Of a DNA stretch of 24,113 nt, positions 865 through 22,696 are shown one piece after another. The DNA lies in IMG/VR virus record IMGVR_UViG_3300049846_001062, positions 1 to 24,113 of that record; one strand, given 5' to 3'. Positions within the stretch are counted from its first letter, which is position 1. Every line of letters begins with the position of its first letter. The translations under genes and the position numbers were made by a program. The notes under the pieces were generated by a model, which did not search any database, was not told the origin of the DNA, and was given only the letters and a program-made list of their open reading frames with translations. The stretch is from a virus.

Positions 865-896
865 GTGGCCGTCCGAGTGGCTATCTAGCCGGACTG

Positions 897-909
897 CCTA
901 AGTTGCCGG
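897..909 (-). promoter_or_regulatory. Start-associated 13-mer (copy upstream of 864)
   Basis: Reads CCGGCAACTTAGG on the minus strand, matching the window consensus at every position. It is 32 nt from the ATG at 864 and just after the TGA of the preceding fibre gene. Confidence 0.7.
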
Positions 910-1981: not shown

Positions 1982-2007
1982 GACTCCGGGCTAGACACTG
2001 CGTTGCG

Positions 2008-2020
2008 CCTAGGTTTCCGG
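2008..2020 (-). promoter_or_regulatory. Start-associated 13-mer (copy upstream of 1981)
   Basis: Reads CCGGAAACCTAGG, the exact modal sequence. It is 26 nt before the ATG at 1981. The bases upstream (CTGAGGTG, 2024-2031) partly mirror the right arm AACCTAGG, so this site may also be a degenerate dyad. Confidence 0.75.
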
Positions 2021-2653: not shown

Positions 2654-2655
2654 AC

Positions 2656-2668
2656 CCAAGGTTTCCGG
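2656..2668 (-). promoter_or_regulatory. Start-associated 13-mer (copy upstream of 2653)
   Basis: Reads CCGGAAACCTTGG and ends only 2 nt before the ATG at 2653. A CCTGAGG about 14 nt upstream could pair with CCTTGGG in RNA. Confidence 0.7.
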
Positions 2669-3060: not shown

Positions 3061-3063
3061 GGA

Positions 3064-3076
3064 CCTAGATTTCCTG
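3064..3076 (-). promoter_or_regulatory. Start-associated 13-mer (copy upstream of 3060)
   Basis: Reads CAGGAAATCTAGG. The TAG inside it is the stop codon of the tail chaperone fusion, and the ATG of the next gene follows after 3 nt. Confidence 0.65.
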
Positions 3077-6703: not shown

Positions 6704-6720
6704 GTACGCAGGGCTTTGGA

Positions 6721-6733
6721 GCTAGGTTGCCTC
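6721..6733 (-). promoter_or_regulatory. Start-associated 13-mer (copy upstream of 6703)
   Basis: Reads GAGGCAACCTAGC, differing from the consensus mainly at the last base. It is 17 nt before the ATG at 6703 and just after the TAA of the hub gene. Confidence 0.6.
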
Positions 6734-11419: not shown

Positions 11420-14400
11420 CTAACCGAGGTTGACGGCGTAGTCGCCGGTGTTGGCATTGACCGATACGTTCACAGCCCAGTCTTTCTGGGCGAGGTTGTT
11501 GGTGGCGTCAGCTAGGGCAGAGTTGACCTTGACGAGAGATTCGCTAACAACAGCTAGGTCGTTGGTTGCTCTGGGAAGATCAATCTGCTGTGCCTGATTG
11601 AGGTCTTGGCCCATCCGTAGTTCTTGGCGAGCAGCTTTGATGAAGTCCAGCGTCTGCTGATTGATCTGCTCGCGGGTGCCACGTGTCTGGAAGCGAATGC
11701 CGAGCTGATTAGCAAGGGCATCAGCCTCAGGGCGCAACTGGTTACCAACAGCAGCTTGACGATCAGCGACCTGCTGCGGGCTGAGAAACTTATTGAGGCC
11801 ACTGCCGCCAGTGTTCTGCAGCTCTTGCAAGGCAGCCACACTGTCTTCAATGCCCCGGCTGATGCTCTTGACAGCATCCTGAGCTGACTTGAAGGCATCT
11901 TGTAGATCGGCCTTGGTTTTGGCAGCAGCCAGCTTGACGTTCTCGGCCGCGAGCTTGGAAGCATTCAGCAGATCGGTGCTGCCTGGGTTGGCGCGCAACG
12001 CAGCCTGAGCGTCCTGCTCAGCACGCTTGGCATCCTCTAGTGCCTTGACCGACTGCAGCGCACCAATGCCGGTGCCGGTGAGGCTGCCACGTTGCTGCTC
12101 AATCGCAATATCCTCTTGGATGCTCTTGAGCTGGTTGGCGGCAGCAATGTTCTGCGCCCAAGTCTCACGGTCGAAACGAGCAATGTCCTGCTTAAGCCTG
12201 TAGGTGTCCTCGGCCGCCTTGCGGTTGATCTCCGCAGAAGCATCTGGGGCAAGATCAGGCTTCGCTAGTGACTCGCGCCGCCGCAGCTCAACCGCTTCAA
12301 TCTCTTTCTCCAGCTTCAGCCGTCTGTTACCAAACGCCTCTGCATCAATCTGGCGGTAGCTGTTGGATCGCAGTTCCGCTTGGCGGCCGAGCGCTGCAAG
12401 GATCGCGTTCTCAGCATCAATAACTTGCTTTGTCTTGCCGTAGCGCTCATCAAGAAGACGATTGACTTCCTCGTACAACTTGCGAGGGTCGCCTCCGACA
12501 TTGTTGCGGGCCTCGGCAACTAGGGAGGTGCGTTCTGGAGTGCTCAGGCCGAGCTGCCGCACCCGCTCGTCAACTATCCCGCGTTGGCCAATCAGCTGGA
12601 AGATGAGCGCCAGTTTGTCGATAAAATCAGTTAGCGGCCCAGCTACAAACTTCACAAGTACCGCAGAAGCGCTCGCAAATGCCTTCTGCAACTCGTCTGA
12701 TGCACTGGCAAGCGCTTCTATTTCGGTACTGTCTCCGAACTGCTGCGCAATGTCCAGCTGTATGCGAGCAGCGGCCTCGGCTTCTTTCCCGTTGGCAATC
12801 AGGGCCGCAATGTTCTTCTCAAGGGCTTTTGAGGAGATTAAGCCAGCCTCAGCTAACTGCTGAAACTTGCCGATGGGGTCGTTCAACGCCGAACCAAGCA
12901 GGCTCAGACGCCCCACCGCCTGATCAACCTGCTGGCCCAGCGCAGTACCGATCAATGAGAGGCCAAAGCCAAACTGACCGCCCATCGCACCGCCAGCGGC
13001 GCCCAAAACGCCGCCGCCCACACTGGCGCCCAGTCCCTGGCCAAACAACAGCGGGAACGCGCCGCCGATTAGTCCGCTACCAACTGCACCCTTGAGTTTT
13101 TTCTTCGCGTCATCGTCTATGCCGAATAGCCTCGGTGATGGTTGGCTCTGGAGAAGAGCCTCACTGGCGAGTCGGGCGCGTTGCTTCCGATCCTGTACGC
13201 CTTGCGCCAGACGGGCGCGGGCGTCGCGGGAACGCTGCTCTTCCGCAGCGCGTAATTGCTGCTCAAGCGCCAGCTGGTCCTGCAACAGCTCGTTTTGAAA
13301 CTTGTAGCCCTGTGTCTGCTCTGCAACTAGCTCATTTAACGACTCCAGACTCAGCCCGATTTGGCCAAAGATCGGGGGCAGCTCACCACCTGCACGGGCT
13401 GCATTGAGTAGCTCGGCGGTGAAGTTCCGGGCGCTCTGGATGCCTACGTCAATCGCAGGTCCAACCTCAGGTGCCAAACGGCGAATGCCGCGGCCCTCTG
13501 CATTGAGCATCTGGCTGCTCGGCAGCGCCAGCGGGCCAGAGGGCTTGGCAGCGTCTAGCAGCTGCTGCGCGATACGCGCACGCTCACGCTCACTCACCAG
13601 CAGCGACTGATCTTGATAGAACTGCGCCTGCAGCTCCTCCTTAATCCGGCGCTGAATTTCTAGTAACTCTCGGCTGGCCTGGAGGTTTTCATCACTGCCA
13701 ACTGGATTGGCCTTAACCCGATCCGTAGCGTCCTTCTCAGCAATGCGGAGGTCTTGTAGCGATGCAATGCCGCTTGCTGCCTCTGATGCACGCGCTAATG
13801 CCTCAAGCAACGCCTGCGTGTCAGCCGTCATCCCCTTGAGGGCAGCCCGCGCTCCATCAACACCGGGCTTGAAGCTCTCGGCGATCAGGTCTTGGAAGCC
13901 GGCGAAGGTAAACGCCAGCGCACCGCCAACCGCAACCGCCTCAGGACCAAGAGCGCCAAGGGAGTTGGTGACCGCCTCAAGCGGGGCGGACAATGTTGAT
14001 AGTTCGCCCTGTGCTTGCAGAATGCTGGCCGCCCAGTTAGAGACTGCTTGGGCTCCACTGGCAAACACATCGTCTAATCCGCCAAGTCCCTTAAGTGGAC
14101 CTGGCAGTGAGGCCAGCGCCTGCTGTACCTGATTGAGGATGCCGGTGGTTTCGGAGGCTGCACCTCCGATCCCGCCAAGCACATCAATAACGCCTTTGGC
14201 AGCAACACCACCAGCGCCAAGTACAGCGACGCCTTCACTTAGGCGTGCGACCTTGCCGCTTGCTGTTTCAGCCTGCTTCTGCAGTCGCTCGATCTGAGCA
14301 CGCGCTTTATCAAATGTTCCCGTGACGTTCTTGGGTAGGCCAAAAATCGGCACCTTCAACGCTTCACCAACCCCCTTGGCGGCAAGACCGGCTACAGCTT

Positions 14401-14995: not shown

Positions 14996-14999
14996 GTAA

Positions 15000-15012
15000 C
15001 CGAGATTGCCCC
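15000..15012 (-). promoter_or_regulatory. Start-associated 13-mer, tape measure side of a divergent pair
   Basis: Reads GGGGCAATCTCGG on the minus strand, 13 nt before GTG 14986. With the plus-strand copy at 15011-15023 it forms a 24-bp dyad with arms CCGAGATT and AACCTCGG (7 of 8 complementary). Confidence 0.7.
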
Positions 15013-15023
15013 GGAAACCTCGG
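15011..15023 (+). promoter_or_regulatory. Start-associated 13-mer, neck-cassette side of a divergent pair
   Basis: Reads CCGGAAACCTCGG on the plus strand, 2 nt before the ATG at 15026. The CCGG is shared with the opposed minus-strand site. Confidence 0.75.
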
Positions 15024-15025
15024 TT

Positions 15026-15418
15026 ATGGCTTCAGCTCTCAGCGCACTCGCTAACGCCACTGCCACCTTCTATGTGGCCGCAACGGGGGTGGTGACTGAT
15101 ACCACCACTGGCAACGTCCTGCCCGCAACGGAATCCGTCACCGTTTCGCTCTTCCTCAAGTCCGACAAGATCAGTGGCACTTCATTCCCCGGCGTCGAAA
15201 TTCAAGAAACCGTCTTCGATGGCTACGCCCTCGATACCCTCGACGCACGGATCGTTGTCGGCACCACCGGAACCGTCAACTTCGCTAGTGAAGGTGTGCT
15301 GCCCTGCGAAGTCACTGGTGTACGCCTCCCTTACGGCAAAACCGGCCTGATTGGCAGCACCCTCAACGCAGCGCTGGGTGAGCGCATTCAACTGGCGTCC
15401 CGTGAGCAAATGGGATGA
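15026..15418 (+). CDS. Probable head-closure / stopper-type neck protein (130 aa), plus strand
   Basis: This small beta-rich protein (MASALSALANATATFYVAAT, then SVTVSLFLKSDKISGTSFPG and TLDARIVVGTTGTVNF) lies immediately before an HK97 gp10-like gene and overlaps it by ATGA. In many siphophages the head-closure protein precedes gp10 in this way, so I infer a neck role. I see no diagnostic residues. What is odd is the strand: this and the next gene run against the minus-strand block and lie between tail tube and tape measure. The ATG is chosen because it is the first start after the stop-rich leader, and it lies 2 nt behind an excellent motif copy. Confidence 0.6.
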   Translation: MASALSALANATATFYVAATGVVTDTTTGNVLPATESVTVSLFLKSDKISGTSFPGVEIQETVFDGYALDTLDARIVVGTTGTVNFASEGVLPCEVTGVRLPYGKTGLIGSTLNAALGERIQLASREQMG

Positions 15419-15900
15419 CTGTCACCTTTATCGAATGGAAGCCTGAGCGCATCCTCGACAAGGTGGCCGACACCTTGGAGCAGGCAGGCCCGGTCTACGC
15501 CCAAGCCACCATCCTCCAGATGTCCAATCCCGTCTGGAATTGGAACTGGGACACCCGCAGGCGCGTCAGCCTGCTGATGGGAGGTGAGCGTCAACAGGGG
15601 CAGCGTGGTGTCGTCGTGCGTGCTGGCCGCCGAGACATCGTGGATACCGGCCGCCTTTTGGACTCAATGACCGCACCAAAGGTGGTGCGGGAACAGGGTG
15701 CCATCACGCTGCAAATTGAGTGGAAAGCGCCTTATTCCGGCCGTGTCCTGGCAGGCGGCGATTACGGCACCTACACACCTCCTGGGCAGCGTGATGCGGT
15801 CTCGATGCCCAATCGCCCGGCACGCAACTGGATTGAAGCCGCCTTCCAGTCACAGCCGCCCCTAGACGTTTTCAGCAACATCTGGCGTGGTGGGTCATAG
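15415..15900 (+). CDS. HK97 gp10-like neck / tail completion protein (161 aa), plus strand
   Basis: An N-terminal helix (ERILDKVADTLEQAGPVYAQ) is followed by RRDIVDTGRLLDSMTAP, a strand (ITLQIEWKAPYSGRVLAGG), and then NRPARNWIEAAF. The order DTGRLLDS, Y-x-x-x-V-x-x-G and PARxW near the end is the pattern of HK97 gp10 / gpZ-like proteins that join head and tail. Length is in the family range. It overlaps the preceding gene (ATGA), so the two form a translational pair. The pair ends at back-to-back hairpins (15904-15963) before the convergent tail tube gene. I am confident of the family type, less of which neck ring it forms. Confidence 0.7.
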   Translation: MTVTFIEWKPERILDKVADTLEQAGPVYAQATILQMSNPVWNWNWDTRRRVSLLMGGERQQGQRGVVVRAGRRDIVDTGRLLDSMTAPKVVREQGAITLQIEWKAPYSGRVLAGGDYGTYTPPGQRDAVSMPNRPARNWIEAAFQSQPPLDVFSNIWRGGS

Positions 15901-15974: not shown

Positions 15975-16454
15975 TCAGGCGTTGGTCTCAGCGCTCCAGG
16001 TGTAGGCGCCGTAACCGGTGAGGGTGAAGCTCACAGATGCCACGTTGCCGGCAGCAATCGACTCGGAGAAGTCGGTCACCCAAGCCACACCCGAGTGGTA
16101 CTCAGGGTTGCCAGCAGCGCTTTGCTCGGGGGATTCGCGATACCACTGAACCGTGACGCCGGTGGCAGCGTTGAGGGCGGCGTTCTTCAGTACCTGATAA
16201 CCGGCGTCATTGAGGTTCAGGTTCATCTGCATCGGGATGCTGTAGCTCTGGCGCTGCACCACCGTTGCGGTAAAGCCCAGGTCACTGCCGTAGTCCAGAA
16301 CGTCCTGGGTTTCGGTGGAACCCTGGATGCCGGCTTCAGTCAGCGACAGCACCTCGGTCAGGCCAGTGCTGTTGGTGGGGTGGGTGCTAGCGGTAGTACC
16401 AGCTTTAACCCAGAACCGATAGTTGAGCGAGTTAAAGAACGCACCCGTAGCCAT
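15975..16454 (-). CDS. Major tail tube protein (159 aa)
   Basis: The gene order and sequence fit a lambda gpV / HK97-type tail tube subunit. A start (MATGAFFNSLNYRFWVKAGT) is followed by strands through LDYGSDLGFTATVVQRQSYS and IPMQMNLNLNDAGYQVLKNA, a helix around residues 82-95, and a final strand pair (ASVSFTLTGYGAYTW). The pairs of strands with a late helix and the size are typical of tube proteins. It is probably made in large amounts; it has its own motif copy and its own terminator, so it forms a single-gene unit. Downstream, where tail chaperones normally lie, there is instead a plus-strand neck cassette. Confidence 0.8.
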   Translation of the reverse strand: MATGAFFNSLNYRFWVKAGTTASTHPTNSTGLTEVLSLTEAGIQGSTETQDVLDYGSDLGFTATVVQRQSYSIPMQMNLNLNDAGYQVLKNAALNAATGVTVQWYRESPEQSAAGNPEYHSGVAWVTDFSESIAAGNVASVSFTLTGYGAYTWSAETNA

Positions 16455-16477
16455 TGACCTGTTAAGCGTTGGTTGCT

Positions 16478-16490
16478 CCTAGATTTCCTC
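16478..16490 (-). promoter_or_regulatory. Start-associated 13-mer (copy upstream of 16454)
   Basis: Reads GAGGAAATCTAGG, 23 nt before the ATG. Its TAG is the stop codon of the sigma-like gene. Confidence 0.65.
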
Positions 16491-17030
16491 GGCTTCTAAG
16501 ACTTCGTACGGCGTAGGGCGCGGGCAAACATGTAGGTCGAAGCCGCGGATGTCGTGATCCGTGGGGCTCGTGGCTACTAAGGCGAGGCGCAGCGCCTCTT
16601 CAGTCATTTGGAGTTGCGTCAGCACTTCAGCTCTGCTGTAGCCCTTGTCTAGTAGCCGGCGGGCTAGCTGCCCGTTGCGGCGGACGGTGCCGGGGGCTTT
16701 GACGAGCCAGTTGTGGTCGCGAATGAAGTGCAGAACGTCGCCCTCCGCAAACACTGTCAGCAGGGTGCTGAACGTGCCCTTGGCGGGTTGCCACGCACGG
16801 CACGTCTTGATAAACGCCTGATCAATACAACTGAATACGTCCTCTGCGCTAACGAACGGGTATTTGCGGCATAGCTTTCGCCCCATCATCCGCAGAAGAC
16901 CTTGATGCTCCCGGTACATCGCAGCGATGCGCCGTTGCTCCTCTCGCGATAGCGGGGTCGCTAAGTAGCCCGTGCGGGGGCGGTGGCGCGTTGCAGAAGG
17001 CGCGTCTGTGGGCGGGGCACCCTGAGCCAT
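16479..17030 (-). CDS. Sigma-70-like protein, regions 2-3 without region 4 (183 aa)
   Basis: Residues 36-108 follow the region 2 pattern of sigma-70 factors: MYREHQGLLRMMGRKLCRKY, then AEDVFSCIDQAFIKTCRAW, QPAKGTFSTLL and DVLHFIRDHNW. They match the usual D-x-x-Q-x-A-F, F-x-P-x-KG-x-FST and IRD landmarks. Residues 109-150 (KAPGTVRRNGQLARRLLDKG, then SRAEVLTQLQMTEEALRLAL) look like a region 3 helix set. The C-terminus has no helix-turn-helix for region 4. If active, it would direct host RNA polymerase to phage promoters. Placement inside the structural module, between adaptor and tail tube, is odd. A diverged or inactive sigma fold, or a terminase-small-like DNA-binding protein, are alternatives. 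Confidence 0.65.
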   Translation of the reverse strand: MAQGAPPTDAPSATRHRPRTGYLATPLSREEQRRIAAMYREHQGLLRMMGRKLCRKYPFVSAEDVFSCIDQAFIKTCRAWQPAKGTFSTLLTVFAEGDVLHFIRDHNWLVKAPGTVRRNGQLARRLLDKGYSRAEVLTQLQMTEEALRLALVATSPTDHDIRGFDLHVCPRPTPYEVLEAEEI

Positions 17031-17078
17031 GAACTCGGTTCGGGCCTACCCAATGTAGTTGCGTATGGCTAACGCTAC

Positions 17079-17639
17079 CTAGCTGCGCTGAACCTGTACG
17101 ACGCCAAGCCCCGTTCGCGTCGTGCTGGTGGTTAAACAGCCGAGAATTGCTGCTAAGTGAGGTAGCACTGTTAAAGGAGTCACCGCTTCGGTGGTGGAAT
17201 TGCCAACGTCAGTGCGCCACTCAATCTCCATCACATCCAACTTCAGTCGGCGCAGGTCGCGGTTTGGAACGCCGGCCACAAGTGCTTTGGAGCTGGGGGT
17301 GCTGCGCAGCAGGGTGGGGTCGCCGAGTAGGGCGTTGGCGAGGTCGAAGGTAGCTAGCTCAACCTCTCGCGGTATTTGCGTTGCGGTGTAGTCCTTGTCG
17401 CCGCACTTTGCGTTGGACCTTGGCCACGCCAAAGCTTGGGTCGTCGTGGCTCTGGTGCCGATCCAGCCCAACGTCTCTAAACCGTTGGTGGCTGTGATCA
17501 AAGCACGGACCTTGTTATCGCTCGTTGCACTGCTCCAGGCCAGCGTCCCCACCATCCCGTCAGCAATGCTGTCCGCTCCAGCGACGCTTAAGTAGCTGTT
17601 GGCGTTGCTGGCTCCAGCAGTCGCAACGAGGGTGGGCAC
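17079..17639 (-). CDS. Head-tail adaptor / connector protein, DnaT-like fold (186 aa)
   Basis: The sequence pattern SNANSYLSVAGADSIADG, then DNKVRALITATNGLETLGWI, QALAWPRSNAKCGDK, and IPREVELATFDLANALLGD is that of phage adaptor proteins often labelled DnaT-like or HK97 gp6-like. The QALAWPRS element and the following helix are the most diagnostic part. These proteins form the ring under the portal. The start is GTG at 17639. A divergent gene begins at 17700, and the 60 bp between them hold two opposed motif copies. It follows the capsid gene with the plus-strand helix-turn-helix gene in between. Length is normal for the family. Confidence 0.75.
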   Translation of the reverse strand: MPTLVATAGASNANSYLSVAGADSIADGMVGTLAWSSATSDNKVRALITATNGLETLGWIGTRATTTQALAWPRSNAKCGDKDYTATQIPREVELATFDLANALLGDPTLLRSTPSSKALVAGVPNRDLRRLKLDVMEIEWRTDVGNSTTEAVTPLTVLPHLAAILGCLTTSTTRTGLGVVQVQRS

Positions 17640-17656
17640 TGGCTTCTGCGCGATTG

Positions 17657-17669
17657 CCTAGGTTTCCGG
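17657..17669 (-). promoter_or_regulatory. Start-associated 13-mer, adaptor side of a divergent pair
   Basis: Reads CCGGAAACCTAGG, an exact modal copy, 17 nt before GTG 17639. It overlaps the opposed plus-strand copy on CCGG, as at 15011-15014. Confidence 0.75.
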
Positions 17670-17680
17670 GGCAACTTTGG
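17668..17680 (+). promoter_or_regulatory. Start-associated 13-mer, helix-turn-helix side of a divergent pair
   Basis: Reads GGGGCAACTTTGG on the plus strand, 19 nt before GTG 17700. The same GGGGCAA variant is used on one side of the other divergent pair. Confidence 0.7.
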
Positions 17681-17699
17681 GTGTAACTGCATACCCACA

Positions 17700-18008
17700 G
17701 TGAGCGATCTAGCCCAAGAACAGCAGGACACTGCTGTAGAAGCGTGTCCGGCAGAAAAGCCGGGGCGTAAAAAGAGCGCAAAAGCAGCAGAGAGTCTCGC
17801 TGCTAAAGGACCGCGTAAGTGGGAAGACGTGGTGCCCAAAATCCGTGAAATGAAAGATGCTGGGGCGACTGTCCCCGAAATCGCGGAGAAGCTTGAGCTG
17901 GGCTACGTGCTCGTGAATCAGGTGATCCTGCAGAGCTACAAGATGAGCGTGGATACCGTGGGCGTGTTTGAGCGGCAGGAGCGGGCGCGGTTGGGTATCG
18001 AGGGCTGA
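17700..18008 (+). CDS. Small helix-turn-helix protein (102 aa), plus strand
   Basis: A polar N-terminus with a basic patch (KPGRKKSAKAAESLAAKG) is followed by a helix-turn-helix of the Hin/resolvase or region-4 type, about residues 45-78: PKIREMKDAGATVPEIAEKL then YVLVNQVILQSYK. A short charged C-terminal helix ends the protein. The GTG start follows a motif copy; there is no clear Shine-Dalgarno. It is a single gene on the plus strand, converging with the capsid gene, and the strong terminator between them is polarised for the capsid transcript. A DNA-binding regulator, a small terminase-like DNA binder, or a partner of the sigma-like protein are all possible. No homologue is named. Confidence 0.65.
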   Translation: MSDLAQEQQDTAVEACPAEKPGRKKSAKAAESLAAKGPRKWEDVVPKIREMKDAGATVPEIAEKLELGYVLVNQVILQSYKMSVDTVGVFERQERARLGIEG

Positions 18009-19895: not shown

Positions 19896-19915
19896 GGGGT
19901 GAAGTAAATGTACGC

Positions 19916-19928
19916 ACTAAGTTGCCGG
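19916..19928 (-). promoter_or_regulatory. Start-associated 13-mer (copy upstream of 19895)
   Basis: Reads CCGGCAACTTAGT, with a single departure at the last base, 20 nt before the scaffold ATG. The CCGGCAACTTAG core equals that at 897-909. Confidence 0.65.
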
Positions 19929-22660: not shown

Positions 22661-22683
22661 GCGCAGACAAAACTCTGGGTACG

Positions 22684-22696
22684 CCTAGGATTCCGC
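22684..22696 (-). promoter_or_regulatory. Start-associated 13-mer (copy upstream of 22660)
   Basis: Reads GCGGAATCCTAGG, with departures at positions 7 and 8, 23 nt before the portal GTG, directly after the terminase stop. Confidence 0.65.

Follow-up and report, generated by a model that had tools for sequence, protein, structure and literature searches.

The gene on the minus strand at positions 16479-17030 of the window, the 24,113-base stretch of DNA analysed here, which is a linear IMG/VR record, encodes a sigma factor of 183 residues that we read, with a probability of about three in four, as a phage late sigma. Consisting of domains 2 and 3, it would direct the host core RNA polymerase to a promoter with a single element. 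We also consider it reasonably probable that this undescribed late system is common to four or more cyanosiphophage lineages; in it, a group-3 sigma minus region 4 is combined with the motif GGMANNCTAG as a long promoter of one element, present ahead of many virion genes, and a sigma-70-type box on the sigma gene itself, often near-leaderless, would create a two-sigma cascade. The host of the window phage is probably a cyanobacterium, since the nearest cultured phages are cyanophages.

The initial annotation placed a sigma-70-like gene inside the structural block, which was confirmed. The gene is real, and is flanked by the genes of the head-tail adaptor Ad1 and of the major tail protein, both named from PHROG matches:

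16479..17030, minus strand: short sigma gene; region 2 at about residues 38-108, SigB/SigF-like region 3 at about 109-153, conserved tail at 154-183, no region 4
17079..17639, minus strand: head-tail adaptor Ad1, upstream neighbour of the sigma gene (phrog_477, 5e-27)
15975..16454, minus strand: major tail (tube) protein, downstream neighbour of the sigma gene (phrog_38654 / 1407)

The terminase, portal, MuF-like, and capsid genes share the strand of the sigma gene. The opposite, plus strand of the window carries two small genes at 15026-15900 and orf17700. The two small genes are inverted within the tail block, and the inversion is kept in all seven genomes compared. The product of orf17700 (17700-18008) has 102 residues, and the gene is preceded by its own late motif; among the seven genomes, it was called in just two, the window and G001, which is close to the window. 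The idea that orf17700 encodes a region 4 separated from the rest of the sigma was dropped because of this restricted occurrence and because its product has no sigma match.

A scan of IMG/VR yielded 94 stretches that encode a relative of the sigma, and 80 loci were kept. At one of them (L076, 3423-3964) the sigma copy has a disrupted frame or contains an assembly error; with this locus excluded, the remaining 79 loci and the window provide 55 distinct sigma proteins. Intact copies are 171-187 residues long, and the 55 distinct sequences share 48 invariant columns, many of which fall in regions 2.3-3.0. The sole relative found in a scan of genome contigs is 84% identical and is located on a low-coverage, 3.3-kb contig of a Rhodoferax MAG (L202, 1602-2147), which is probably a misbinned phage fragment.

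The window protein belongs to the sigma-70 family and contains region 2 and a SigB/SigF-like region 3, without region 4. Pfam Sigma70_r2 matches residues 38-108 (E=1.3e-4; 22.1 bits, below the curated cut-off of 24), the PHROG 351 profile, 'RNA polymerase sigma factor', matches residues 33-153 (3e-8), and Sigma70_r2 is matched at E<=1 by 38 of the 41 aligned family members, which bears out the initial placement of region 2 at residues 36-108. The placement of region 3 at residues 109-150 is supported by a profile alignment to SigB, but the window protein has no match to Pfam region 3. In this alignment, the best of the PDB profile search, columns 80-152 of the family profile pair with SigB of S. 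aureus (8x6g_H, 4.3e-5). Second among the sigmas is 1l0o (0.043), listed as 'sigma factor', which we take to be SigF. The sequence of regions 2 and 3 is closest to SigB/SigF among solved structures, and the region 4 of group-3 sigmas is absent, as initially proposed: none of the 41 members matches Pfam region 4, and the proteins stop at 171-187 residues.

A phmmer search of the PDB with the single window protein gave nothing useful, and the family profile was needed. The AlphaFold model of the window protein has a moderate mean pLDDT of 71.6 and superposes on domain 2 of many sigma factors with Z scores of about 7-9; some of the alignments extend to residue 160. Because such middling Z scores are common for helical folds, the consistency of the list of fold matches outweighs the score. 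Sigma factors were preferred in both the profile and fold searches, and no other fold was preferred. The putative clamp-binding helix of region 2.2 is predicted by the model at residues 62-79, and its sequence, SCIDQAFIKTCRAW, has diverged from those of related cyanophage sigmas. The family can be aligned by hhalign to the short sigmas of phages S-CRES1, P-SS2, and S-CBS2 over 149 columns (E 1.2e-12), and these proteins likewise have no Pfam region 4.

The repeated start-linked motif of the initial annotation is real. Both the window and six near-complete relatives contain the consensus CCGGMAACYTAGG, derived from the upstream sequences of the window and a Gibbs search, mostly 15-24 nt ahead of start codons. 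A PWM trained on 13 of the same window sites that it scores has 15 matches of at least 12 bits in the window, compared to 1.4 expected, and 14 of the 15 are non-coding or at gene starts, which make up 12% of the sequence. Four sites are only 0-4 nt ahead of the likely start codon. The motifs are:

895..909, minus strand: CCGGCAACTTAGGCA, 30 nt before orf640
2006..2020, minus strand: CCGGAAACCTAGGCG, 24 nt before orf917
2654..2668, minus strand: CCGGAAACCTTGGGT, abutting the ATG (2653-2651) of orf2309
3062..3076, minus strand: CAGGAAATCTAGGTC, 1 nt before orf2671
6719..6733, minus strand: GAGGCAACCTAGCTC, 15 nt before orf6281
11422..11436, minus strand: CCGTCAACCTCGGTT, 4 nt before orf10674
14998..15012, minus strand: GGGGCAATCTCGGTT, 11 nt ahead of the tape measure gene and facing the motif at 15011..15025 head to head
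15011..15025, plus strand: CCGGAAACCTCGGTT, immediately before orf15026
16476..16490, minus strand: GAGGAAATCTAGGAG, 21 nt ahead of the gene for the major tail protein; includes the TAG stop of the sigma gene
17655..17669, minus strand: CCGGAAACCTAGGCA, 15 nt before Ad1, at the head of the Ad1-sigma operon
17668..17682, plus strand: GGGGCAACTTTGGGT, 17 nt before orf17700, overlapping head to head with the Ad1 motif
19914..19928, minus strand: CCGGCAACTTAGTGC, 18 nt before a scaffold-like gene
22682..22696, minus strand: GCGGAATCCTAGGCG, 21 nt before the portal gene

The overlapping head-to-head motifs of the divergent gene pairs at 14998-15025 and 17655-17682 form near-palindromes. The motif before Ad1 is also present in G001, G002, G003, G005, and G006.

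Scanned with the PWM from the 13 window sites, the six near-complete relatives, which are 42-48 kb long, carry the motif before the same genes and on the same strand; the gene starts of uncultured genomes were called mechanically, and some are wrong. The six genomes contain 73 matches of at least 12 bits, compared to 15.2 expected from Markov sequence, and 58 of the 73 fall outside coding sequence or at starts, which account for 15-19% of the sequence. The motif density of G005 is low, with eight matches. The matches at the two ends of G006 (L115 and L117) show a constant offset of 47,422 bases, which suggests that this genome has a terminal repeat and is complete, circular or permuted. The 80 sigma loci (878 kb, redundant) contain 336 matches of at least 13 bits, compared to 21 in Markov sequence, and 79 of them have at least one; because the loci are related, the clade counts are not independent, and part of this evidence is shared descent. 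In the clade, GGMANNYTNG occurs near 58 of 142 structural starts in the sense orientation and 17 in antisense, and near 26 of 269 other starts (13 antisense). No -35 element is conserved: with 48 sites aligned, the 45 nt upstream contain no position with more than 0.21 bit of information.

In the fetched parts of S-CBS2, S-CRES1, and P-SS2, the window PWM has little excess of matches, because the flank of the motif differs there. An unseeded Gibbs search of 26 virion starts of S-CBS2 and 25 of S-CRES1 identified TNGGMA[TA]NCTAG, 17-21 nt before most starts, with scores of 111 (39-44 for shuffled sequences) and 103 (42-50), respectively. The same search of 37 starts of P-SS2 resulted in GGAANGCTAG, with a score of 116 (38-54). 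The control phages KBS-S-2A, S-H1, MED4-117, and S-2L, which have no short sigma in the parts fetched and, across the entire collection, no match to the window protein at E<=10, scored at or barely above the shuffled level (37-40 and 30-43). The regular expression GGMANNCTA was found within 60 nt of the annotated starts of 20 of 41, 14 of 37, and 9 of 36 late genes of S-CBS2, S-CRES1, and P-SS2 (43 of 114 in sum, 1 antisense), 'late' being the virion and lysis block as assigned by gene content, and at 2 of 60, 2 of 60, and 1 of 59 other genes (5 of 179). The mixed block of P-SS2 at positions 1-22147, kept outside these sums, has 4 of 30. Three adjacent P-SS2 genes have identical 60-nt upstream sequences (L083 9488, 10140, and 10792), the product of a recent triplication.

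Seven cyanosiphophages without the short sigma have GGMANNCTA at none of their 188 late genes, 94 of which belong to KBS-S-2A, S-H1, MED4-117, and S-2L, and 94 to S-CBS1, S-CBS3, and S-CBS4, the last of which was read over 50 of its 69 kb (Fisher 1.6e-21 for 43 of 114 versus 0 of 188). Since the expression was fixed after the Gibbs output, the seven controls provide the fairer test. A scan for similar capsids, with the smaller alignment as the query, as an alignment of nine capsids had no conserved stretch, returned 80 loci, of which 74 were entered and 51 extend 2.5 kb past the capsid gene; the 50 without sigma have 0.36 motif matches per 10 kb, and the one with sigma has 4.8. Only two of 167 gene families, SIGMA and MTP (the major tail protein), are present in all seven clade members and all three motif-positive phages while being absent from all seven negatives (E 1e-3).

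The motif could be a promoter read by a canonical sigma of the phage or host, while the short sigma has another role, for example competition with the host sigma. A second sigma is indeed encoded in 10 of 13 clade records, canonical in the two examined, and P-SS2 and S-CBS2 have two sigmas each. However, KBS-S-2A and S-CBS1 encode canonical phage sigmas with regions 1.2-4 (in S-CBS1, region 3 matches below the cut-off), and one is annotated in S-CBS3, yet the motif is found at none of the 77 late starts of these three phages; possession of a canonical sigma is thus not enough for the motif to be present. Furthermore, the promoters of a complete sigma, region 4 included, could be expected to carry a -35 element, and none is conserved. 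We regard this explanation as unlikely, and judge the same of the motif being an operator, or an RNA or translation signal of late mRNAs, instead of a promoter. Its link to starts, 0-30 nt upstream, and the operator-like near-palindromes at the two divergent pairs fit such a role, but the spacing is variable and too distant for a Shine-Dalgarno sequence, the motif is asymmetric, oriented with the gene, and mostly outside coding sequence, and it tracks the presence of the sigma gene in four lineages.

The relatedness of the clade loci and the phyletic pattern of MTP, which is the same as that of the sigma, would also be expected if the sigma and motif were inherited features of a lineage without a functional link. 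This is improbable, because S-CBS2, S-CRES1, and P-SS2 have few genes in common with the clade, whereas KBS-S-2A, S-H1, MED4-117, and S-2L, which are nearer relatives by portal and capsid, have neither sigma nor motif. It is even harder to credit that the protein is some other helical protein, or the product of a degenerate gene: the weak match of the single sequence and the diverged region 2.2 would allow it, but the invariant columns of the family, many in regions 2.3-3.0, and profile and fold matches mostly to sigmas speak for a working sigma.

As a late sigma, the short protein would bind the host core RNA polymerase through domain 2, which would read the element. The promoter would have the consensus CCGGMAACYTAGG, with GGMANNCTAG as the core common to the distant phages. 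Group-3 -10 elements include GGGTAT of SigB and GCCGATAA of FliA, and from the resemblance to them we interpret CGGMAA as a group-3-like -10 element and CYTAGG as a conserved discriminator, without a -35 element. Transcripts would then start near the end of the 15-mer and have leaders of about 0-30 nt, mostly 15-24 nt. The absence of a -35 element agrees with that of region 4, as proposed for gp36 of phiEco32 (PMC8948821). The dedicated late transcription programme suggested in the initial annotation gains support from the enrichment of the motif at virion genes, its orientation with them, the lack of a -35 element, and its recurrence in distant phages with a related short sigma and absence from seven without one; polymerase binding, motif recognition, promoter use, start sites, and timing are the parts that we infer.

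By sequence, the window protein appears to group with SigB/SigF-type sigmas and with the short group-3-like phage sigmas of P-SS2 ('type III rpoS', ACT65565), S-CBS2 (gp077), and S-CRES1 (gp20). SigB and SigF have region 4 and -35 elements, whereas the window family, although they are its best PDB profile matches, ends before region 4. The three cyanophages have the same GGMANNCTAG late motif as the window, but its flank is TNGG or GGAA and not CCGG; their sigma genes adjoin terL, whereas that of the window is located between the adaptor and tail tube genes, and the proteins have an additional C-terminal stretch. In its working, the window protein may resemble gp55 of T4 and gp36 of phiEco32. 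T4 gp55 is a sigma domain-2 protein for late promoters, with similarity to sigma-70 limited to domain 2 (PMC2988020); unlike the mechanism considered here, it acts with gp33 and the sliding clamp gp45 via a C-terminal clamp motif. The phiEco32 gp36 is a phage sigma without region 4, and its middle and late promoters share one conserved element and lack a -35 (PMC8948821), but the element is tAATGTAtA, the host and sequence are different, and gp36 is biochemically proven, while the window system is sequence-based.

The group-3 sigma of P-SS2 was published in 2009 with no target known, and the promoters described in the available text of that paper are BPROM sigma-70 promoters only (PMC2784084). 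A search of the openly accessible literature, including the available parts of PMC2784084, PMC3751600, PMC6157547, PMC10452541, PMC8948821, and PMC2988020, did not find a description of the motif. A promoter and regulon can now be assigned to the P-SS2 sigma by sequence, and since the cultured phages have culturable hosts, the prediction is directly testable. The system would join T4 gp55 and phiEco32 gp36 as a further, independent example of a region-4-less sigma paired with -35-less promoters. In contigs of uncultured cyanophages, the motif can serve to flag late genes, and the sigma and its promoter are a candidate orthogonal pair for cyanobacteria.

The sigma gene itself has a different upstream signal. 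A TANNNT box ends 5-10 nt before its ATG in 49 of 50 distinct upstream sequences, and is found at the same position before none of 133 structural genes; the late motif is present in 2 of the 50. The sole exception is the window's own copy, the upstream sequence of which (17031-17105) has no near-start TANNNT box. On mechanically called starts, the sigma gene scores TANNNT in only four of seven genomes. The box suggests that, in most relatives, the sigma gene has a sigma-70-type, near-leaderless promoter. Because the late motif precedes Ad1 and the sigma gene is downstream of Ad1, the sigma may boost its own operon and thus be autoregulated. The likely order of events would be that a host or canonical phage sigma transcribes the short sigma gene, and the short sigma then the virion genes.

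A second sigma, above the Pfam cut-off, is encoded in 10 of 13 relatives, and the three without it are partial records:

early region of G001-G008, G010, and G013 (loci L089-L098): second sigma, open frames of 299-421 residues

The two second sigmas examined contain regions 1.2, 2, 3, and 4 and are canonical, with one region 3 match below the cut-off. The early genes of G001 (L101) and G002 (L103-L105) have sigma-70-like promoters, for example TTGACC-17-TACTAT. A motif search of early genes gave no clear signal in G004-G006, and weak signals in G001 and G002, where an inverted repeat, CTTAC-TAAG, recurs within or close to the spacer of the early promoters and is possibly the operator of a phage repressor.
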